DNA from: Clostridioides difficile ATCC 9689 = DSM 1296 | GTDB lineage: Bacteria > Bacillota > Clostridia > Peptostreptococcales > Peptostreptococcaceae | Reading direction: 5' to 3' | Length of the DNA: 64,000 nt | Assembly: GCF_001077535.1 (NCBI RefSeq) | Contig: NZ_CP011968.1 | Location: 1,302,001-1,366,000 of the forward strand | Shown here: in pieces, positions 2,556 through 41,084 of the stretch | Position numbering within the stretch: the first letter of the stretch is position 1 | Layout of the letters: each line of letters begins with the position of its first letter | Notes under the pieces: model-generated | The model's input: only the letters and a program-made list of their open reading frames with translations | Told to the model about the DNA's origin: nothing | The model's database searches: none | Translations under genes and position numbers: made by a program

Positions 2556-4541
2556 ATGAAAAATCTGTGTAAAATATCAGATGATTATTTAAACAGCAAG
2601 CTTAAGTATTTAAAGTTATTATCAAAACAATATCCAAGTATATCAAAAGCAAGTACAGAAATAATAAATTTAGAGGCTATATTAAATCTTCCAAAGGGAA
2701 CAGAGCATTTTATAACAGATGTACATGGTGAATATGAACCATTTGTACATGTATTAAAAAATGGTTCTGGTGTAATAAAGAGAAAAATAGAAGAATTGTT
2801 TTCAAATACAATAAGAGACAGCGAAAAAAAAATGTTAGCAACTCTTGTATATTATCCTGAACAAAAGTTAGACCTAATAATTAAGCAAGAGGAAAATATA
2901 GATGATTTTTATAGAATAAATATTTATAGACTTATAGAACTTTGTAAATATGCTTCTAGCAAATATACTAGGTCTAAAGTTAGAAAACTGTTACCAGAAA
3001 ATTTTAAATACATAATAGAAGAACTTTTGCATGAGCATGTTAAAAGTGAACATAAAGAAGAGTACTATAAAAGTATAGTTGAAACAATAGTTGACATAGG
3101 AATAGCTAAGGAGTTTATAATTGCTATTTCTACAGTTATACAAAAATTGGTTGTAGATAGACTTCATGTAATAGGAGATATTTATGATAGAGGTCCAAGA
3201 CCAGATATAATTGTCGATAAGCTTATTGAACATCATTGTGTAGATATTCAATGGGGAAATCATGATATATTGTGGATGGGTGCAGCCTCAGGTGAAAAAA
3301 CTTGTATAGCAAATGCACTGAGGATATCAGCTAGATATGCGAATTTAGACATTGTAGAAGACATATATGGAATAAATCTGTTGCCTTTGGCCACTTTTGC
3401 TATAGAAATGTATAAAGATGACCCTTGTAAAGAATTTATTCCAAAGGTTAATGACCAAAGTGTAACAACAACAGAAAAGTCTTTAATGGCAAAAATGCAC
3501 AAAGCAATAAGTATAATTCAATTTAAGCTTGAAGGTGAGGTTATAAGACGAAGACCTGAATTTGAAATGGAACATAGACTCTTGCTTAATATGATAAACT
3601 ATGATGAAGGTACGATTAATTTAAAAGGTAAAACATATAAATTAAAAGATACTTATTTACCTACAATAGACAAAAAAGACCCATATAAATTAACTATGGA
3701 AGAAAGAAATGTTATTGATAAATTAGTATCTTCATTTAGAGGTAGTGAAAAATTACAAAAACATGTTTCATTTTTGTTTTCTAAAGGAAGTATATATTTA
3801 AAGGCTAACTCAAATTTACTGATTCATGGATGTGTACCGTTAAATGAAGATGGAAGCTTTATGTCTATGAATATAATGGGAAAAGAGTATAAAGGTAAGG
3901 CTCTTATGGATAAGATGGAGTCTCTAGCAAGAGAAGGATTTTTCTTTAAAGATAAGGCAGAAGAAAAACTGTATGGCATGGATATTATGTGGTATTTATG
4001 GACTGGGAAATGTTCATCATTATTTGGTAAAGATGATATGACTACATTTGAAAGATACTTTATAGCTGAAAAAGAGACTCATAAAGAAAATAAGAACCCA
4101 TATTTTAAACTTAGAGAAAATGAGATGGCTTGTAAAAGATTATTTGAAGAATTTGATTTAGAACTTGATGAATCTCATATAATAAATGGTCATGTTCCTG
4201 TGGAGAGTAAAAATGGAGAGAGCCCAATAAAAGCTAATGGTAAAATTCTCGTTATAGATGGTGGTTTTTCTAGGGCTTACCAAAAAACTACTGGTATAGC
4301 TGGATACACTTTGATATACAATTCTAGAACTTTGCAATTAGTATCGCATGAACCATTTAATTCTGCTGAAGAAGCCATTGCAAATGAAAGTGATATCTTA
4401 TCGACAACTGTTGTAGTAGAGCATAAGGCAAAGAGAAAAATGGTGAGAGATACTGATGAAGGAGTAAAGATACAAGAGGAAATAGAAGATTTAAAACTAC
4501 TTTTAATGGCGTATAAGAAAGGGCTAATAAAAGAAATGTAG
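2556..4541 (+). CDS. fbp: class III fructose-1,6-bisphosphatase
   Basis: A 661-residue protein of the Firmicute-type FBPase (class 3). It converts fructose-1,6-bisphosphate to fructose-6-phosphate in gluconeogenesis. Calcineurin-like metal ligands are visible as D-V-H-G-E (about residues 55-59), G-D-I-Y-D-R-G (about 207), G-N-H-D (about 233) and N-G-H-V-P (about 541). The length fits the family. The ATG follows GGAGGA. Two terminator-like hairpins separate it from the sporulation operon downstream. Confidence 0.95.
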
Positions 4542-4550
4542 ATGTTATAG

Positions 4551-4579
4551 AGGCACTTCATGATTGAAGTGTCTTTTTG
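4551..4579 (+). terminator. rho-independent terminator of fbp
   Basis: A 10-bp stem (4551-4560 with 4565-4574, one G-U) with a TGAT loop, followed by a T-run. Confidence 0.85.
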
Positions 4580-4637
4580 TTAATACTTATTAAATATATT
4601 ATAAAGATTAATAATAGTAGTTTATATTATACTTACT

Positions 4638-4672
4638 AAGTGAATCCAAGATAAATGGGTTCACTTTTTTTA
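4638..4672 (+). terminator. second terminator-like hairpin between fbp and spoIIIAA
   Basis: Arms 4638-4647 and 4658-4667 pair over about 10 bp with one G-U, followed by a run of T. With the hairpin at 4551 it forms a tandem barrier in front of the spoIIIA operon. Confidence 0.75.
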
Positions 4673-4708
4673 TTTATAAACATTATTAAAAAAATATAGA
4701 TGTTTTGG

Positions 4709-4737
4709 TTATATTCCTTGTCCTTTATAAATAGAAT
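4709..4737 (+). promoter_or_regulatory. putative SigE-type promoter of the spoIIIA operon
   Basis: TTATATT (4709-4715), a 14-nt spacer, then AATAGAAT (4730-4737). This resembles the mother-cell SigE pattern (ATATT / CATACA-T) with two -10 mismatches. Predicted transcription start is near 4744, about 20 nt before the ATG. In Bacillus subtilis and C. difficile spoIIIA is a SigE operon; the exact site here is my reading. Confidence 0.5.
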
Positions 4738-4762
4738 TATATAAACAAAGGAGGAGGACAAG
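4717..4762 (+). promoter_or_regulatory. hairpin that can mask the spoIIIAA ribosome binding site in read-through RNA
   Basis: CTTGTCCT (4717-4724) is the exact complement of AGGACAAG (4755-4762), and two flanking G-U pairs can extend the stem. The right arm covers part of the SD region AGGAGG and the bases just before ATG 4765. The left arm lies in the -35/-10 spacer of the putative SigE promoter, so RNA started there would not contain it. Confidence 0.5.
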
Positions 4763-17033: not shown

Positions 17034-17846
17034 ATGAAAAAAAGAATAGATTTATTATTAGTAGAACAAGGGTACTTTGAAAGTAGAGAAAGAGCCAAAA
17101 AAGCAATAATGGCTGGATTGGTTTTTGTTGATAATCAAAGGTGTGATAAGGCTGGTACAGAAGTAAAAGAAGATTGTAGTATAGAAGTAAAAGGAAATCC
17201 AATACCATATGTCAGTAGAGGTGGTTTAAAACTTGAAAAAGCAATGAAAAACTTTGATTTGACTATTGATGGAAAGGTATGTATGGATATAGGGGCATCC
17301 ACAGGTGGTTTTACAGATTGTATGCTCAAAAATGGAGCAATAAAAGTATTTTCTATAGATGTTGGTTATGGTCAACTTGCATGGAAATTGAGACAAGATG
17401 ATAGGGTTGTGTGTATGGAAAGAACCAATATAAGAAATGTGACAATAGAAGATACAAAGCAGTTTGCTGATTTTGCGTCAATTGATGTGTCTTTTATATC
17501 GTTAAAGTTAGTACTTCCAAAGGCAAAGGAGTTAGTACGTCATGATGGGGAAGTTGTCGCTTTAATTAAACCTCAATTTGAAGCAGGAAGAGAAAAAGTA
17601 GGTAAAAAAGGAGTAGTTAGAGAAAAATCTACACATATAGAAGTTATAAAAATGATTTCTGATTTCTCAGTCGAAAATGGATTTGAGATTTTAGGGTTAG
17701 ATTTTTCTCCTATTAAAGGTCCTGAAGGTAATATAGAATATCTAATTCATTTGAGAAATGGAAATGAAGGATATGAATTTGATGGTGAGACATACAATAA
17801 CAAAATAGTAGAAGTTGTTGAAGCTTCTCATAATTTAGACAAATAG
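17034..17846 (+). CDS. tlyA: TlyA-family rRNA 2'-O-methyltransferase (hemolysin-like)
   Basis: 270 residues: N-terminal S4 RNA-binding domain (about 1-60) and a FtsJ-type Rossmann domain with S-adenosylmethionine loop D-I-G-A-S-T-G-G-F-T-D. TlyA in mycobacteria methylates 16S and 23S rRNA; the Firmicute homologue YqxC is less studied. Usually argR/ahrC separates it from recN; here recN follows after 19 nt. Confidence 0.88.
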   Translation: MKKRIDLLLVEQGYFESRERAKKAIMAGLVFVDNQRCDKAGTEVKEDCSIEVKGNPIPYVSRGGLKLEKAMKNFDLTIDGKVCMDIGASTGGFTDCMLKNGAIKVFSIDVGYGQLAWKLRQDDRVVCMERTNIRNVTIEDTKQFADFASIDVSFISLKLVLPKAKELVRHDGEVVALIKPQFEAGREKVGKKGVVREKSTHIEVIKMISDFSVENGFEILGLDFSPIKGPEGNIEYLIHLRNGNEGYEFDGETYNNKIVEVVEASHNLDK

Positions 17847-28944: not shown

Positions 28945-29481
28945 ATGGTATTAGAAGAAAAAACTATTAGTAGTGATAGGGTTTATACAGGTAAAGTAAT
29001 TACTTTAAAGGTTGATACTGTTGAAATTCCAGGGCAAGGATATCAAAAAAGGGAGTTAGTAGAAGTTGGTGGAGCAGTAGGAATAGTTGCAATCACAGAT
29101 GATAATAAAGTTGTGTTAGTTAAGCAATTTAGAAAACCTATAGAAAAGCCAATCTTTGAAATTCCAGCTGGTAAACTAGAAAAAAATGAAAGTCCAAAAG
29201 AATGTGCTGAAAGAGAATTAAAAGAAGAAACTGGGTATAGTGCAAAAAATATTAAGCTAATACATAAATTTTTCACTTCAGCAGGTTTTTCTAATGAGAT
29301 AATGTTTGTATATTTAGCAACAGGTCTTACTCCAGGAGAGAATAATTTAGATGCAGATGAGTTTTTAGATGTCTATGAAATTGAGCTTGAAGAAGCATAT
29401 AACATGGTATTAAAAAATGACGTTGAAGATGCAAAAACATCTATTGGATTATTATTAGTAAAAGATATGTTTAAAAATTAA
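28945..29481 (+). CDS. nudF: NUDIX hydrolase, ADP-ribose pyrophosphatase
   Basis: 178 residues. NUDIX box G-K-L-E-x5-E-x-A-x-R-E-L-x-E-E-T-G is complete (about residues 75-100). It hydrolyses ADP-ribose and related nucleoside diphosphate sugars. SD TGGAGG inside the end of the previous gene. It is the last gene before spoIIM. Confidence 0.92.
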   Translation: MVLEEKTISSDRVYTGKVITLKVDTVEIPGQGYQKRELVEVGGAVGIVAITDDNKVVLVKQFRKPIEKPIFEIPAGKLEKNESPKECAERELKEETGYSAKNIKLIHKFFTSAGFSNEIMFVYLATGLTPGENNLDADEFLDVYEIELEEAYNMVLKNDVEDAKTSIGLLLVKDMFKN

Positions 29482-29493
29482 TATTTATAAAAT

Positions 29494-29522
29494 GAATAAC
29501 CCTTTGTCCTAAAGCATACTAT
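29494..29522 (+). promoter_or_regulatory. putative SigE-type promoter of spoIIM
   Basis: GAATAAC (29494-29500), 14-nt spacer, CATACTAT (29515-29522). The -10 matches the mother-cell SigE consensus CATACA-T except at one base. Expected start near 29529, about 20 nt before the TTG. Confidence 0.6.
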
Positions 29523-29540
29523 TTTATAAAGGACAAGGGG
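29500..29540 (+). promoter_or_regulatory. hairpin masking the spoIIM ribosome binding site in read-through RNA
   Basis: 11-bp stem: CCCTTTGTCCT (29500-29510) with AGGACAAGGGG (29530-29540), one G-U, 19-nt loop. The right arm is the SD of spoIIM. The left arm lies in the spacer of the SigE-like promoter, and the -10 lies in the loop. No T-run follows, so it is not a terminator. Confidence 0.6.
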
Positions 29541-29548
29541 GAATTAAA

Positions 29549-30154
29549 TTGAGAAGAACATATAGAAAAAATGATTTTAGAGAATTAAATAGACAAATAA
29601 TTATTATAGGATTGTTGTTTATGATGTCTATTGTTATTGGGTCTTACATAAATAAAATATTGCCAGGTTCTAGTAACAATATATTAAACAATATAAATCC
29701 TGCTGTAGAGTATTATAATCTAAATATAAGCATAAAAGATACAGTGATACAAAATTTAAAATCAGATGCAATCTTTATGGGCTCAATAGCTCTATTAAGT
29801 CTATTTGTAGTAACAATTCCAGCAGTGTTGGTAGCTTTTGTATTAAAAGGGATGTCAATTGGTTATACAATAAATAGCTGTATATTGGCATTAAAATTTA
29901 AAAGTATAAAAATGATTTTAATAATATTATTTAAAAATTTGATTATTATTCCATGTGCAATCATATTAGCATTAATTAGTTTAAGTTATTTTAAAGAAAT
30001 GGTTTATGAATTTAAAAAGAAAAATAGAAAAAATATGCAATTTTTAATTAAGAGGTATATACTAAATATTATAATTATAATAGCACTATCATTGGGGTTG
30101 CAATTAATATTAAATACTGCAAGTATTGGTATTATTAAGTTCCTAGCTAAATAA
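29549..30154 (+). CDS. spoIIM: stage II sporulation protein M
   Basis: 201 residues with five membrane helices, the SpoIIM family shape. With SpoIID and SpoIIP it drives engulfment in the mother cell; SpoIIM is the membrane scaffold. TTG start after AAGGGGG. The next gene begins 11 nt downstream. Its place between nudF and xerD-like follows the Bacillus order. Confidence 0.93.
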   Translation: MRRTYRKNDFRELNRQIIIIGLLFMMSIVIGSYINKILPGSSNNILNNINPAVEYYNLNISIKDTVIQNLKSDAIFMGSIALLSLFVVTIPAVLVAFVLKGMSIGYTINSCILALKFKSIKMILIILFKNLIIIPCAIILALISLSYFKEMVYEFKKKNRKNMQFLIKRYILNIIIIIALSLGLQLILNTASIGIIKFLAK

Positions 30155-30165
30155 AGGAGTTTATA

Positions 30166-31080
30166 ATGGATATTATAGAGGGATATATAGATTACATAAA
30201 AGATAAAAAAAAATTATCAGAGAATACAGTGGCATCATACTTTATGGATATAAAAAAATATATGGAATATATAAATCAAAAAAGCATTAAACTAGTAGAT
30301 ATAGTAGAAAATGATATTATAAGTTACTTAATAAAGTTGGAAAAAGATAATGTATCAATAGCTACAATAGCGAGGATGATATCCTCTATAAAATCTTTTC
30401 ATGATTATTTATTTTTAAATCATATATGTGCAAATAATCCTGCAAAGGATATAAAAAAACCTAAAATAAAAAAAGAAAATATAAATATACTTACAGAAGA
30501 AGAAATTGAAAGACTATTAAATTTTCCAAAGTTAACAACGCCTAAATTGATTAGGGACAAGGCTATTTTTGAAGTATTATATGGTACTGGTATAAAAGTA
30601 TCTGAATTAGTAGAGATGAATATAGAGGATATTGACCTAGATATTGATTATATATATTGTAATTCATGTTGTAAAAATCAAAGAGTGATACCACTTTGTG
30701 ATATTACAAAACTTTACTTAGAAAAGTATCTAAAAGAAGCAAGACCTAAAATGGCTGTAGAAGGTGAAAAATCATTATTCGTAAGTTCATTAGGTCAAAG
30801 GTTTACACGACAAGGTCTTTGGAAAGTCATAAAAAAATATTCTAATCTAGCCAATATAGATAAAAATATAAATCCTACAATGCTTAGACATTCATTTGCT
30901 ATTCATTTGTTAAATGAAGGTGCTAACATTGCTGTTGTAAGTAAAATTTTAGGAAATGTTAATTTATCTAGTTTGCAAGTATATTTAAATCATATAGATA
31001 AAAACGTGAGAAGAGAAATAAAGGAGAAACATCCTAGAAATGATGTTGATGTAGAATTACAAAAAGCAGAAGCTAAATAG
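30166..31080 (+). CDS. XerD-like tyrosine recombinase homologue with degenerate active site
   Basis: 304 residues: N-terminal SAM-like core-binding domain (1-100) and a full C-terminal catalytic domain fold. It aligns end to end with XerD and sits in the xerD (ripX) position between spoIIM and deoB. By my alignment to E. coli XerD, Arg-I is Lys144 (G-I-K-V-S-E-L), the catalytic Lys is Cys168, the His of H-x-x-R is Thr238 and the second His is Asn264. Only Arg241 and the nucleophile Tyr273 remain. Strand exchange activity is therefore doubtful; it may be a structural or DNA-binding protein. Confidence 0.85.
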   Translation: MDIIEGYIDYIKDKKKLSENTVASYFMDIKKYMEYINQKSIKLVDIVENDIISYLIKLEKDNVSIATIARMISSIKSFHDYLFLNHICANNPAKDIKKPKIKKENINILTEEEIERLLNFPKLTTPKLIRDKAIFEVLYGTGIKVSELVEMNIEDIDLDIDYIYCNSCCKNQRVIPLCDITKLYLEKYLKEARPKMAVEGEKSLFVSSLGQRFTRQGLWKVIKKYSNLANIDKNINPTMLRHSFAIHLLNEGANIAVVSKILGNVNLSSLQVYLNHIDKNVRREIKEKHPRNDVDVELQKAEAK

Positions 31081-38044: not shown

Positions 38045-38070
38045 TAAAAAATTGATAAAAATAGTATTAG

Positions 38071-38109
38071 CCCCTTAGAAATTGTCAATAATGAAATTAT
38101 CTAAGGGGT
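38071..38109 (+). promoter_or_regulatory. hairpin masking the ribosome binding site of the sporulation PBP gene
   Basis: 9-bp perfect stem: CCCCTTAGA (38071-38079) with TCTAAGGGG (38100-38108), plus one outer G-U, 20-nt loop. The right arm is the SD of the PBP (ATG 38116). No T-run follows. The loop contains CAATAAT (38086-38092), at the place where the SigE-type -10 lies in the spoIIM and spoIIIAA hairpins. Confidence 0.6.
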
Positions 38110-38115
38110 GATTTC

Positions 38116-39780
38116 ATGTCAAAAAAGAAGACTCCATTTTTGAAAAAAGTGGGAAAGAGAAGCTGGTGTATATTTACTATAATTTTAATAATTTATAGTG
38201 TTTTAATTTATAGGCTAGTTGATATACAAGTATTAAAAGGTGATAAATACAAACAAAGTGTTGAATCACAAAGCGTTGAGAAAGTCGAGTTAAATAGTGG
38301 AAGAGGAATAATCTATGATAGAAACAACAAGAAGCTTACAGATACAAGTAAATCTCAGATATTAATTGTTGAAAAAGAAAAATTAAATAATAACTATAAA
38401 ATTTTGGAACTTATTAAGAAAGCTACTAAGATGAATGATTTAGATATATATAAAGCTGTACAAGAGCAATTGACACGCCCTATAATACAGATTCAGACTA
38501 AAAATATCGATAAGAGTATGAAAAAAGAACTTGAGAAAAATGGAATAATGGTAGAAGAAAAAACTATGAGGTACGCAAAAGATGGTTTATTATCACATAC
38601 AATAGGATATATAAAAGAAGATGATAAATCAGGTCAATCAGGAATTGAAAAGAGTATGGATAGTGTACTTAGAAATTCAAATGAAAAGTATATAAGTGCT
38701 TTTAAAGCTGGAGATGCAGGAAATGAAAAATCTCTAAACATACTAAAGGGAAGTGTAAAAACTGTTGATAATAAGGATAAAGATAGACATCTAAAAACTA
38801 CTATTGATTATAACATTCAAAAAAAATTAGAACAAATACTAAATAAAGAAGAAAATCCTACAGCAGCAATAATCTCGGAAGCATCTACAGGTGAAATTCT
38901 TGCAATGTGCTCTAGACCTAATTTTGACCAAAATGACATATCAAAAAGTTTAAAAGGAAAAAATGGAGAATTTGAAAATAGAGTTATAAAAGCGACATAT
39001 CCACCAGGGTCTGTATTTAAGATGGTAGTTTTATTTTCTGCACTTGAAAATGGTGTTATAGATGAGAACTATACTTACAACTGTACAGGTAAGACTAAAG
39101 TTGGGAATACTAATGAAATACTGCGATGTAATAAAAGAGATGGTCATGGTTTTCAAAACTTAAGACAAGCTTTTTCTAATTCATGCAATCCTGCATTTTT
39201 AGATATAGCTATGAAACTTGGAAAAGAAAAGATACTCAAATCTGCTGAAAAATTACATTTATTTGAAAAGGTTGATATTGGTCTTGATGAAGAAAAAATT
39301 AGAGAAGCTCCAAAAAACATATCAATAAGAAATTTAGCTATAGGTCAAGAAAATATAGAATTTACACCACTTCAAATAAATCAAATGACTCAAATAATAG
39401 CTAATAATGGAACATTCAAACCACTATACTTATATAAAAGTCTTGTGGACAATAATATGAATACAATAAAAACTTATAAGTCTTCAAAAAAAGAAGAACT
39501 TATTTCTCCTTATGTGTGTACACAAGTTAAAGAATATATGAAGTCTGTATCTAGGACTGGTACAGCTAAAGACCTAAAAGATATTGAAGGTGGTTGTGGA
39601 GTTAAAACTGGTACAGCTCAAAGTAGTTTAAATAAAAAAGCTATAGACCACGGATGGATAACAGGATTTTATCCTGAAGAAAGACCTAAGTATGTAATAA
39701 CTGTGTTAGTAGAAGGAACTCAAAAAGGAAATAAATCTGCAACACCTATATTTAAGGAAATATGTGAAAGTATAAAATAA
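38116..39780 (+). CDS. class B penicillin-binding protein, probably sporulation-linked
   Basis: 554 residues: N-terminal cytoplasmic tail, membrane helix (about 17-38), dimerisation domain, and a transpeptidase domain with S-V-F-K (catalytic Ser), S-C-N and K-T-G. It is shorter than FtsI/SpoVD and has no PASTA domain. In C. difficile 630 the PBP next to sigK is known as CD1229. Being convergent with sigK suggests a role in spore cortex or septum, which is inference. SD AAGGGGTG. Confidence 0.88.
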   Translation: MSKKKTPFLKKVGKRSWCIFTIILIIYSVLIYRLVDIQVLKGDKYKQSVESQSVEKVELNSGRGIIYDRNNKKLTDTSKSQILIVEKEKLNNNYKILELIKKATKMNDLDIYKAVQEQLTRPIIQIQTKNIDKSMKKELEKNGIMVEEKTMRYAKDGLLSHTIGYIKEDDKSGQSGIEKSMDSVLRNSNEKYISAFKAGDAGNEKSLNILKGSVKTVDNKDKDRHLKTTIDYNIQKKLEQILNKEENPTAAIISEASTGEILAMCSRPNFDQNDISKSLKGKNGEFENRVIKATYPPGSVFKMVVLFSALENGVIDENYTYNCTGKTKVGNTNEILRCNKRDGHGFQNLRQAFSNSCNPAFLDIAMKLGKEKILKSAEKLHLFEKVDIGLDEEKIREAPKNISIRNLAIGQENIEFTPLQINQMTQIIANNGTFKPLYLYKSLVDNNMNTIKTYKSSKKEELISPYVCTQVKEYMKSVSRTGTAKDLKDIEGGCGVKTGTAQSSLNKKAIDHGWITGFYPEERPKYVITVLVEGTQKGNKSATPIFKEICESIK

Positions 39781-39876: not shown

Positions 39877-40518
39877 TTAACTTTCTTGAACAAGCTCTTT
39901 TTCTAGTTTTTTAAGAGCTTTTTTTTCGATTCTAGATACATATGACCTTGATATATCGAGTTTTTGTGCAATTTCTCTTTGTGTCTTATAGCCATAAGGA
40001 GTTAACCCATATCTTAACTGGACAATTTCTCTTTCTCTAGGAGTAAGAATTTTGTTTAGTTGTTCGTAAAGTTTTCCAACTTGAACTTTTAGTTCAACTT
40101 CATCAAGAACATAGTTAGCCTCTGTACCAAGTATATCTAAAAGACTTATTTCATTACCTTCTTTATCTGTTCCGATAGGGTCTTGTAGAGATACTTGAGT
40201 TTTATTTTTTTTGTTAGATCTAATATTCATTAAAATCTCATTTTCAATACATCTAGAAGCATATGTTGCTAATCGAGTTCCTTTATCTATGTTATAAGTT
40301 TCTATAGCTTTAATTAATCCTATTGTACCTATGGATATTAAATCATCCTGATCTTCCGTTGAATTATTATATTTCTTTGCTATATAAGCTACTAATCTCA
40401 TGTTTCTTTCAATTAATGTATCTTTTGCACTTTTATCGTTTTCTATTTTAAATTTAGTTAAATACTCAATCTCTTCTTCAGGGGTTAAGGGTTTTTCAAA
40501 AGATTTAAGAGCTGCCAA
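39877..40518 (-). CDS. sigK: mother-cell sigma factor SigK, uninterrupted
   Basis: 213 residues of the sigma-70 family: region 2 with D-L-I-S-I-G-T-I-G-L-I-K and region 4 with a C-terminal helix-turn-helix (K-T-Q-R-E-I-A-Q-K-L-D-I-S-R-S-Y-V-S). TTG start after GGGGGTG. Two features matter. The frame is continuous, with no skin element inside it, unlike strain 630. There is also no N-terminal pro-sequence: residue 9 already aligns with mature Bacillus SigK. Both follow directly from the sequence. Confidence 0.96.
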   Translation of the reverse strand: MAALKSFEKPLTPEEEIEYLTKFKIENDKSAKDTLIERNMRLVAYIAKKYNNSTEDQDDLISIGTIGLIKAIETYNIDKGTRLATYASRCIENEILMNIRSNKKNKTQVSLQDPIGTDKEGNEISLLDILGTEANYVLDEVELKVQVGKLYEQLNKILTPREREIVQLRYGLTPYGYKTQREIAQKLDISRSYVSRIEKKALKKLEKELVQES

Positions 40519-41084
40519 TAGGTCACCCCCTTTTCAACGGTCACTTTAAATTATATGAAGGAGACTTATCCAAGTTGACTGTTATCTAATAAAATAATAT
40601 GCATATTTTTAGAATTTAAAACATATATTTGCAAACTTTTGAATGGAATATGACATAAAGAGTGGGAATTTAAATTTAAGTTTTTGTTGTATATATATGA
40701 AACAAGGCGAAGAAATTATTGATTTATAAAGTATAAATTGGAATTGAGGTGTCAATAAATATAAAAGGAAATAGTATTTATATATGTTTTGGTGTTGAAG
40801 TAAAAGATTAATGCAAAGTATTAGAGTCTATAAAAATATGAATATAGGAGGTGTAATTTTACAATATTTAAAAAAGTAAATGTAATTAATTGTTTGTATA
40901 AAGTTGATTACAAGCAAAAGTATCAGTCATAGTTAATACTGTTAAGGATGAAGGTGGTGTGTTAATTTATATATGTATGGGAAGAAATTTTGATTACAAT
41001 GAAAAAACTTACAAAAGATATTTACAAAAAAACTTATAGTTAAATGTTTATATATAAAATACTATTTAGGGGTTGTTTTTATTA
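40519..41084. other. 566-nt region upstream of sigK and the pilin genes, with several short decayed-looking reading frames
   Basis: On the minus strand a CATATAAT (40550-40557) could be the SigE-type -10 of sigK. On the plus strand a series of short frames follows: a GTG-led one at 40749-40811 (20 residues, S-I-N-I-K-G-N-S-I-Y-I) and an open stretch at about 40910-41039 coding V-N-T-V-K-D-E-G-G-V-L-I-Y-I. They have coding-like composition but are broken by stops and frame changes. They may be the remains of a gene linked to the pilins downstream. I cannot name it. Confidence 0.3.

Follow-up and report, generated by a model that had tools for sequence, protein, structure and literature searches.

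Genes and hairpin at the spoIIM locus

The DNA analysed here, referred to as the window, is a stretch of 64,000 nucleotides (nt) from the genome of Clostridioides difficile ATCC 9689 = DSM 1296 (contig NZ_CP011968.1, positions 1,302,001 to 1,366,000 of the forward strand), and our subject is a hairpin in the leader of its sporulation gene spoIIM. Three co-directional genes occupy 28945-31080 on the plus strand, separated by intergenic gaps of 67 nt and 11 nt. The first gene of the presumed operon encodes a nudF-like NUDIX hydrolase (28945..29481; PF00293, with NudE/AdpP-type matches below cut-off). It is followed by spoIIM (29549..30154; TTG start at 29549-29551, 201 amino acids; PF01944, TIGR02831 below its cut-off) and by xerD (30166..31080; TIGR02225 below its cut-off), which starts 11 nt past the spoIIM stop.

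Ahead of spoIIM, also on the plus strand, a promoter-like sequence is formed by a -35-like GAATA (29494..29498) and a -10-like CATACTAT (29515..29522). The 16-nt spacer between them (29499-29514) therefore contains the left arm CCCTTTGTCCT (29500..29510), which is complementary to the right arm AGGACAAGGGG (29530..29540). The right arm contains the Shine-Dalgarno (SD) sequence, whose G-run lies at 29537..29541. Both arms were delimited by sequence and folding; their 11 base pairs follow one another without interruption and include a single G-U pair (T29503-G29537). A sequence-only reading of this DNA had claimed that an 11-bp stem 29500-29510/29530-29540 locks the spoIIM SD, with the left arm in the promoter spacer and the -10 in the hairpin loop; pairing, fold energy and coordinates agree with it on each point. 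The minimum free energy of the hairpin is -18.3 kcal/mol (z -3.41), and one of 200 dinucleotide shuffles was equally stable. A T-run, as expected of an intrinsic terminator, was sought at the stem and is absent, GAATTAAATTG coming directly after it. The Rfam database gave no match at gathering in the window, and the one weak match in 29300-29800 (E 0.39) lies away from the hairpin.

Transcription start and predicted opening of the SD

A published 5′-end map of C. difficile 630 prints a 42-mer for the CD1221 promoter, with the mapped transcription start site (TSS) underlined (PMC7438776, Table 3). Its letters are identical to window positions 29487..29528 on the plus strand. The underlining is lost in the text version of that source, and the TSS was placed by position, between the -10 and 29528. 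Since the start must follow the -10 and the printed 42-mer ends at 29528, the mapped spoIIM start falls past the left arm, on its 3′ side. The sequence-only reading had proposed a start near 29529 and RNA lacking the left arm, which ends at 29510, and this exclusion of the arm stands; it called the promoter SigE-like, and the sigma factor is disputed, as discussed below. A start upstream of 29500 had been named as one of the findings that would speak against the idea. The published table, as distinct from its raw data, lists one spoIIM promoter, with its TSS within the 42-mer ending at 29528 (PMC7438776).

The consequences for the SD were calculated for RNAs of different length. Opening the SD is predicted to cost 11.3 kcal/mol in RNA beginning at 29300, 29400 or 29480, 11.9 kcal/mol from 29490 and 10.6 kcal/mol from 29500. 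For RNA beginning at 29505, 29525, 29528 or 29529, the predicted cost is 0.2 kcal/mol.

Conservation and co-evolution of the arms

SpoIIM was searched for in 71 genomes of the family (Peptostreptococcaceae), and 55 of them have the gene. All 55 leaders carry ATA exactly 16 nt ahead of CATA, and in each of the 45 distinct leaders ATA plus the spacer pairs with the stretch from the -10 to the start codon (-14.0 to -25.9 kcal/mol, median -20.0). By a separate rule, which asks for a duplex of -12 kcal/mol or better with half or more of the SD core in pairs, an SD-covering hairpin is present in 55 of 55 leaders. The stems vary from clade to clade (TTGTCC or CTGTCC, CTCCTCT, CCCCTT, and types seen once) and the pairing is retained; a covariance model (R1) matched all 55 leaders and gave weaker hits elsewhere in the family genomes. 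With the start sites of the relatives set 6 nt past the -10, the predicted cost of SD opening averages 13.3 kcal/mol for the long and 0.9 kcal/mol for the short RNA, the long RNA being the costlier in every one of the 55.

Exchange of arms between leaders weakened the pairing, from a mean of -19.4 kcal/mol for own arms to -15.7 kcal/mol for swapped ones within the family. In a set of 32 leaders, made up of one per genus and 14 order-level loci, which only partly removes relatedness, the own pairing of -17.5 kcal/mol compares with a permuted mean of -13.7 kcal/mol, and none of 20,000 permutations was as good. The same result (0 of 20,000 each) was obtained with the family-only and the order-only sets.

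Beyond the family, 20 loci were fetched for other families of the order, where 21 genomes have a SpoIIM match. ATA-N16-CATA together with a pairing spacer occurs in 14 of them, and all 14 comply with the SD-covering rule; by this rule alone the count is 16 of 20 (adding L287 and L290, with L281, L282, L292 and L294 failing). At the class level, 30 loci were fetched from 142 genomes with a match, of which the 15 with SpoIIM-sized frames were kept and the 15 with frames of at least 283 amino acids were dropped. A duplex of -12 kcal/mol or better was found in 11 of the 15, eight of these 11 having ATA 15-17 nt ahead of CATA, and nine of the 15 pass the SD-covering rule. Six of the class-level loci belong to one family (f33), in which the arm takes in the -10 and covers one third to just over half of the SD core.

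Duplexes and permutation together bear out the compensatory conservation that had been proposed as a check, the arms being kept and changing together in the 55 loci of the family and in 14 loci beyond it. As far as sequence comparison can tell, the spoIIM arms co-evolve and their pairing is kept by selection in the relatives.

Operon context and probable read-through

A search for terminators between nudF and spoIIM in the 55 loci found none. Because no terminator was seen in any of these loci and xerD follows 11 nt past spoIIM, read-through RNA from nudF is likely to be made. Among the 16 family genomes that lack spoIIM, seven have a XerD match; in four of these (L304-L307) nudF stands directly ahead of xerD, and the other three have no nudF match in the fetched stretch. 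Since nudF adjoins xerD in these four spoIIM-less genomes, its RNA may normally need to cross spoIIM in order to reach xerD.

Similar leaders at other sporulation-linked genes

A scan for SD-masking duplexes covered 864 kb of the genome (the window and 40 further stretches) and 680 genes with an SD. Among long-range duplexes that pair 60% or more of the SD core, the one at spoIIM (-21.2 kcal/mol) was the second strongest. Duplexes of -14 kcal/mol or better were found at 22 of the 680 genes, compared with 10, 11 and 12 when left regions were swapped. The scan also surfaced a penicillin-binding protein (PBP) gene at 38116, a gene of the small acid-soluble spore protein (SASP) type (PF00269), spoIIIAA, yabP and spoVE, as well as non-sporulation genes. 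For the PBP gene, the SASP gene, yabP, spoIIIAA and yqfC, 30 loci each were examined, out of 53-55 genomes with a match. A leader was scored as exposed to read-through if a co-directional open reading frame (ORF) ended within 260 nt and no terminator was found.

In the PBP gene (38116-39780), the leader at 38064..38108 on the plus strand carries GTATT (38064-38068) and GTCAATAATG (38084-38093), with the left arm (38071-38079) in the spacer and the right arm at 38100-38108. The promoter GTATT-N15-GTCAATAATG resembles what we take to be the SigF consensus. CD1229, probably the same gene, is listed as SigF-dependent (PMC3789822). The hairpin is present in 27 of 30 loci, all 27 of which are exposed. 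In the three without it (L118, L119, L121) the upstream gene is divergent or a terminator is present, and none is exposed. The terminator rule was loosened after a first version had missed the terminator at L121; under that first version the counts are 27 exposed with hairpin, one exposed without and two with neither.

A comparable contrast was seen at sigK, where a strong hairpin is found in 17 of the 19 loci with sigK downstream of the PBP gene, vs. none of the four in which the orientation is opposite. Rows were dropped from this count for L095, L096 and L098 (starts judged false on the basis of their leaders, no hairpin), L097 and L099 (no start), and L100 and L102 (no sigK). The sigK gene of the window (39877-40518, minus strand) is oriented opposite to the PBP gene and appears intact, with both sigma-70 regions; its leader (40519..40580, minus strand) has only a weak duplex of -10.5 kcal/mol. 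In some other Clostridioides loci the sigK start is missing, as though the gene were interrupted.

The yabP leader has the hairpin in all 30 loci and the SASP leader in 25 of 29, with a short local stem in the four others; one SASP locus (L170) was dropped for lack of a start. The arm occupies the spacer or the sequence just before the -10 in PBP and sigK leaders and runs across the -35 in SASP leaders. We read the arm as lying 5′ of the putative start at the PBP gene, sigK, the SASP gene and yabP. As to the SASP locus itself, the gene L155:6079-6324 (minus strand) directly adjoins a methyltransferase-like gene and lies behind an M20 peptidase gene, presumably CD3221, an M20D peptidase gene reported as SigH-controlled with a ratio of 0.16 (PMC7438776). 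A single in-frame TAG occurs in the SASP-like gene of two genera, g16 and g22 (matches in G022, G028 and G086-G089).

Over six genes, sigK excluded, 134 leaders have a hairpin and are exposed, 17 have a hairpin and are not exposed (14 of them at spoIIIAA), five are exposed without a hairpin and 48 have neither; a Fisher test on these counts takes no account of relatedness, nor of five of the six genes having been noticed through their hairpins. The fair part of this evidence is the within-gene contrast at the PBP gene and at sigK. Other ORF starts in the same loci show such a duplex in 32 of 404 cases, 17 of which are sigK. The sequences indicate that hairpin presence tracks exposure to read-through at the PBP, SASP, yabP and sigK leaders, and spoIIIAA breaks the correlation.

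Two candidates were rejected as further cases. The spoIIIAA leader (4709..4762, plus strand) combines a promoter-like TTATATT (4709-4715) and AATAGAAT (4730-4737) with arms at 4717-4723 and 4756-4762. Its clear stem is confined to eight Clostridioides loci of the 30 and no locus with a hairpin is exposed, for which reasons the gene was counted against the correlation. Terminator-like stems stand at 4540-4680 of the window, between a 661-aa upstream gene and spoIIIAA, despite the SD hairpin in Clostridioides. yqfC, from which the same design was expected as a further SigE gene placed in a growth operon, has the hairpin in none of 30 loci; 27 were scored as not exposed and three as exposed without hairpin. 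In the genome under study (L145) its leader contains a long inverted repeat, AGGTATTTAT / ATAAATACCT, upstream of the SD, which is left uncovered.

Strong SD-masking duplexes were also noted at non-sporulation genes, namely PdxR-like, DppA-like and ABC transporter genes (L156:15893-17308, L139:14954-15748 and L135:14067-15794). Immediately ahead of the gene at window position 17034 stands a strong stem that resembles a terminator of the preceding gene.

Proposed mechanism and its alternatives

We consider it highly probable that the mechanism first put forward in the sequence-only reading is correct, namely that RNA from the spoIIM promoter is translated and read-through RNA is masked at the SD. 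The promoter and the translation switch of spoIIM would then be the same piece of DNA. Read-through RNA from nudF would carry the promoter spacer, which would fold onto the SD, block ribosome loading and leave the masked RNA to serve xerD. RNA from the own promoter would begin at or just before 29528, past the left arm, and its SD would be free because it starts 3′ of this arm. As the one RNA is masked and the other open, the cell could keep spoIIM inside a growth operon and confine synthesis of its protein to times at which the gene's own promoter is active. The arrangement would amount to a switch of the kind known from phage T4, placed within a sporulation promoter; it is conserved far outside C. 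difficile, recurs at several genes, and has a predicted effect on translation. The motif [GT][AC]ATA-N16-CATA fits what we take to be the SigE consensus, and SigE would presumably be the sigma factor.

Several observations weigh against this account. With regard to the arms, just four of the 32 right arms pair best with their own left arm, as the common arm CCTCCTCTT pairs well with most SDs. A subset of 15 leaders with a nearly invariant left arm contains no compensatory change. RNAalifold on a plain MAFFT alignment of the first 30 leaders returned only four pairs, because the right arm was mis-registered, with a three-column shift in Clostridioides; the plain alignment was replaced by per-sequence duplexes anchored on ATA-N16-CATA and by the arm-swap permutation. 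At spoIIIAA, a duplex is present in 14 of 30 loci by the energy rule and none of the 14 is exposed, 13 having a terminator and one (L067) no upstream ORF end within 260 nt. The sigma factor is disputed in published work: one study placed the spoIIM promoter under SigH, giving a sigH ratio of 0.5 and a score, 3.41, that is rather low (PMC7438776), the spoIIM transcript was unchanged in sigE and sigF mutants (PMC3789822), and a review calls the gene Spo0A-dependent (PMC6934232). As a further reservation, SpoIIM was reported to be dispensable for sporulation in C. difficile (PMC6221140).

An unchanged spoIIM signal in the sigE and sigF mutants is expected if read-through RNA dominates this signal. 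SigE dependence could therefore be hidden by read-through RNA; equally, another factor may serve the promoter. The masking logic is independent of which sigma factor acts.

Among the alternatives, translational coupling would have ribosomes that terminate at nudF open the hairpin, with spoIIM translated only along with nudF. A terminating ribosome covers about 10 nt past the stop, and the nudF stop lies 5-29 nt ahead of the spacer in 54 of 55 loci; the left arm could in this way be partly melted in many relatives. However, the gap is 17 nt in C. difficile and 106 nt in L014, and the hairpin is retained in both. Coupling leaves unexplained both the place of the left arm, between -35 and -10 in all 55 loci, and a TSS by which this arm is lost, and at the PBP gene the upstream stop is about 50-88 nt ahead of the start. 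We regard coupling as improbable.

Still less probable is an RNA thermometer, a ligand switch or a target of a small RNA on RNA begun upstream of the hairpin. A strong SD-sequestering stem is typical of such elements, but Rfam yielded no hit at gathering for the window and nothing at the hairpin, the stem letters differ widely among clades with the pairing kept, and the printed TSS is 3′ of the left arm (PMC7438776). A DNA dyad overlapping the promoter and bound by a regulator such as SpoIIID would explain an inverted repeat that flanks the -10, yet G-U pairs occur, all 55 leaders have half or more of the SD core covered, and the arm letters differ by clade (TTGTCC, CTCCTCT, CCCCTT) with pairing maintained, which makes a dyad hardly credible. 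Equally implausible is a 3′-end protector or weak terminator of nudF RNA: a stem this strong just past a stop codon can halt 3′ exonucleases, but the T-run is absent, the terminator search was negative in all 55 loci, and neither the fixed position in the spacer nor the loss at the PBP gene behind a divergent or terminated upstream gene would be explained.

Implications

The preferred mechanism, RNA from the own promoter being translated and read-through RNA masked, might extend to spore-forming Clostridia in general, where promoter regions would act as an insulation code. Developmental genes placed behind genes of different timing or location would each have an anti-SD arm 5′ of the gene's own start, and only RNA made with the right sigma factor would be translated. 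Such a code would keep growth apart from sporulation (spoIIM, yabP, SASP) and the forespore apart from the mother cell (sigK, where it follows the SigF-type PBP gene), and the arm would be lost when a terminator or an inversion ends read-through. We give this generalization an even chance of being right.

If true, RNA levels mislead as to the expression of a set of sporulation genes. A review took the unchanged spoIIM RNA to mean that the role of SpoIIM differs between C. difficile and Bacillus (PMC6934232); the unchanged RNA in sigE and sigF mutants may instead just reflect untranslated read-through RNA. The mechanism would also show how developmental genes can sit in growth operons, provide a sequence rule for finding them, and make it possible to test whether translation, besides transcription, guards compartment-specific expression. 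Natural losses of the hairpin at the PBP gene and at sigK make the rule testable by comparison.

Comparison with known systems

In yeast, long undecoded transcript isoforms (LUTIs) arise from an upstream promoter and a developmental promoter makes the decoded isoform; they act via upstream reading frames and promoter repression. The proposed spoIIM RNAs share the undecoded longer isoform, whereas masking of the SD would be the means. No bacterial LUTI case was apparent by title or abstract opening among the matches listed. Translational coupling hairpins are SD-masking stems between two genes of an operon; they are opened by upstream translation, whereas at spoIIM it would be the start site chosen that leaves the left arm out. 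RNA thermometers and translational riboswitches sequester the SD by a stem in the same manner, but spoIIM has no Rfam match at gathering and its mapped-start RNA is without the stem.

Masking of the ribosome binding site (RBS) of the T4 type had been thought to be undescribed for sporulation genes, and we found no description in the literature searched, which left most subscription journals outside its coverage. The lysozyme gene e of T4, named as the precedent in the sequence-only reading, is indeed such a case: longer early RNAs sequester the RBS, with an effect of about 100-fold, and late promoters just upstream give RNA without the 5′ strand (PMC3014915). For soc, 49 and I-TevI of T4, an RBS hairpin in early RNA with the late promoter inside the hairpin is described, and in some T4 relatives the late promoter lies within the region encoding the 5′ strand (PMC3014915). 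Unlike gene e, spoIIM is a sporulation gene of a bacterium and lies in a growth operon, its arm occupies the -35/-10 spacer in all 55 leaders, several genes of the same genomes have similar leaders, and its effect on translation is a predicted one. Three features of the gene e type recur at spoIIM, with an SD-masking helix in the predicted long RNA, a 5′ arm upstream of the TSS and conserved pairing. As in gene e, RNA started upstream would mask the RBS, and a stage-specific promoter would give RNA without the 5′ arm.
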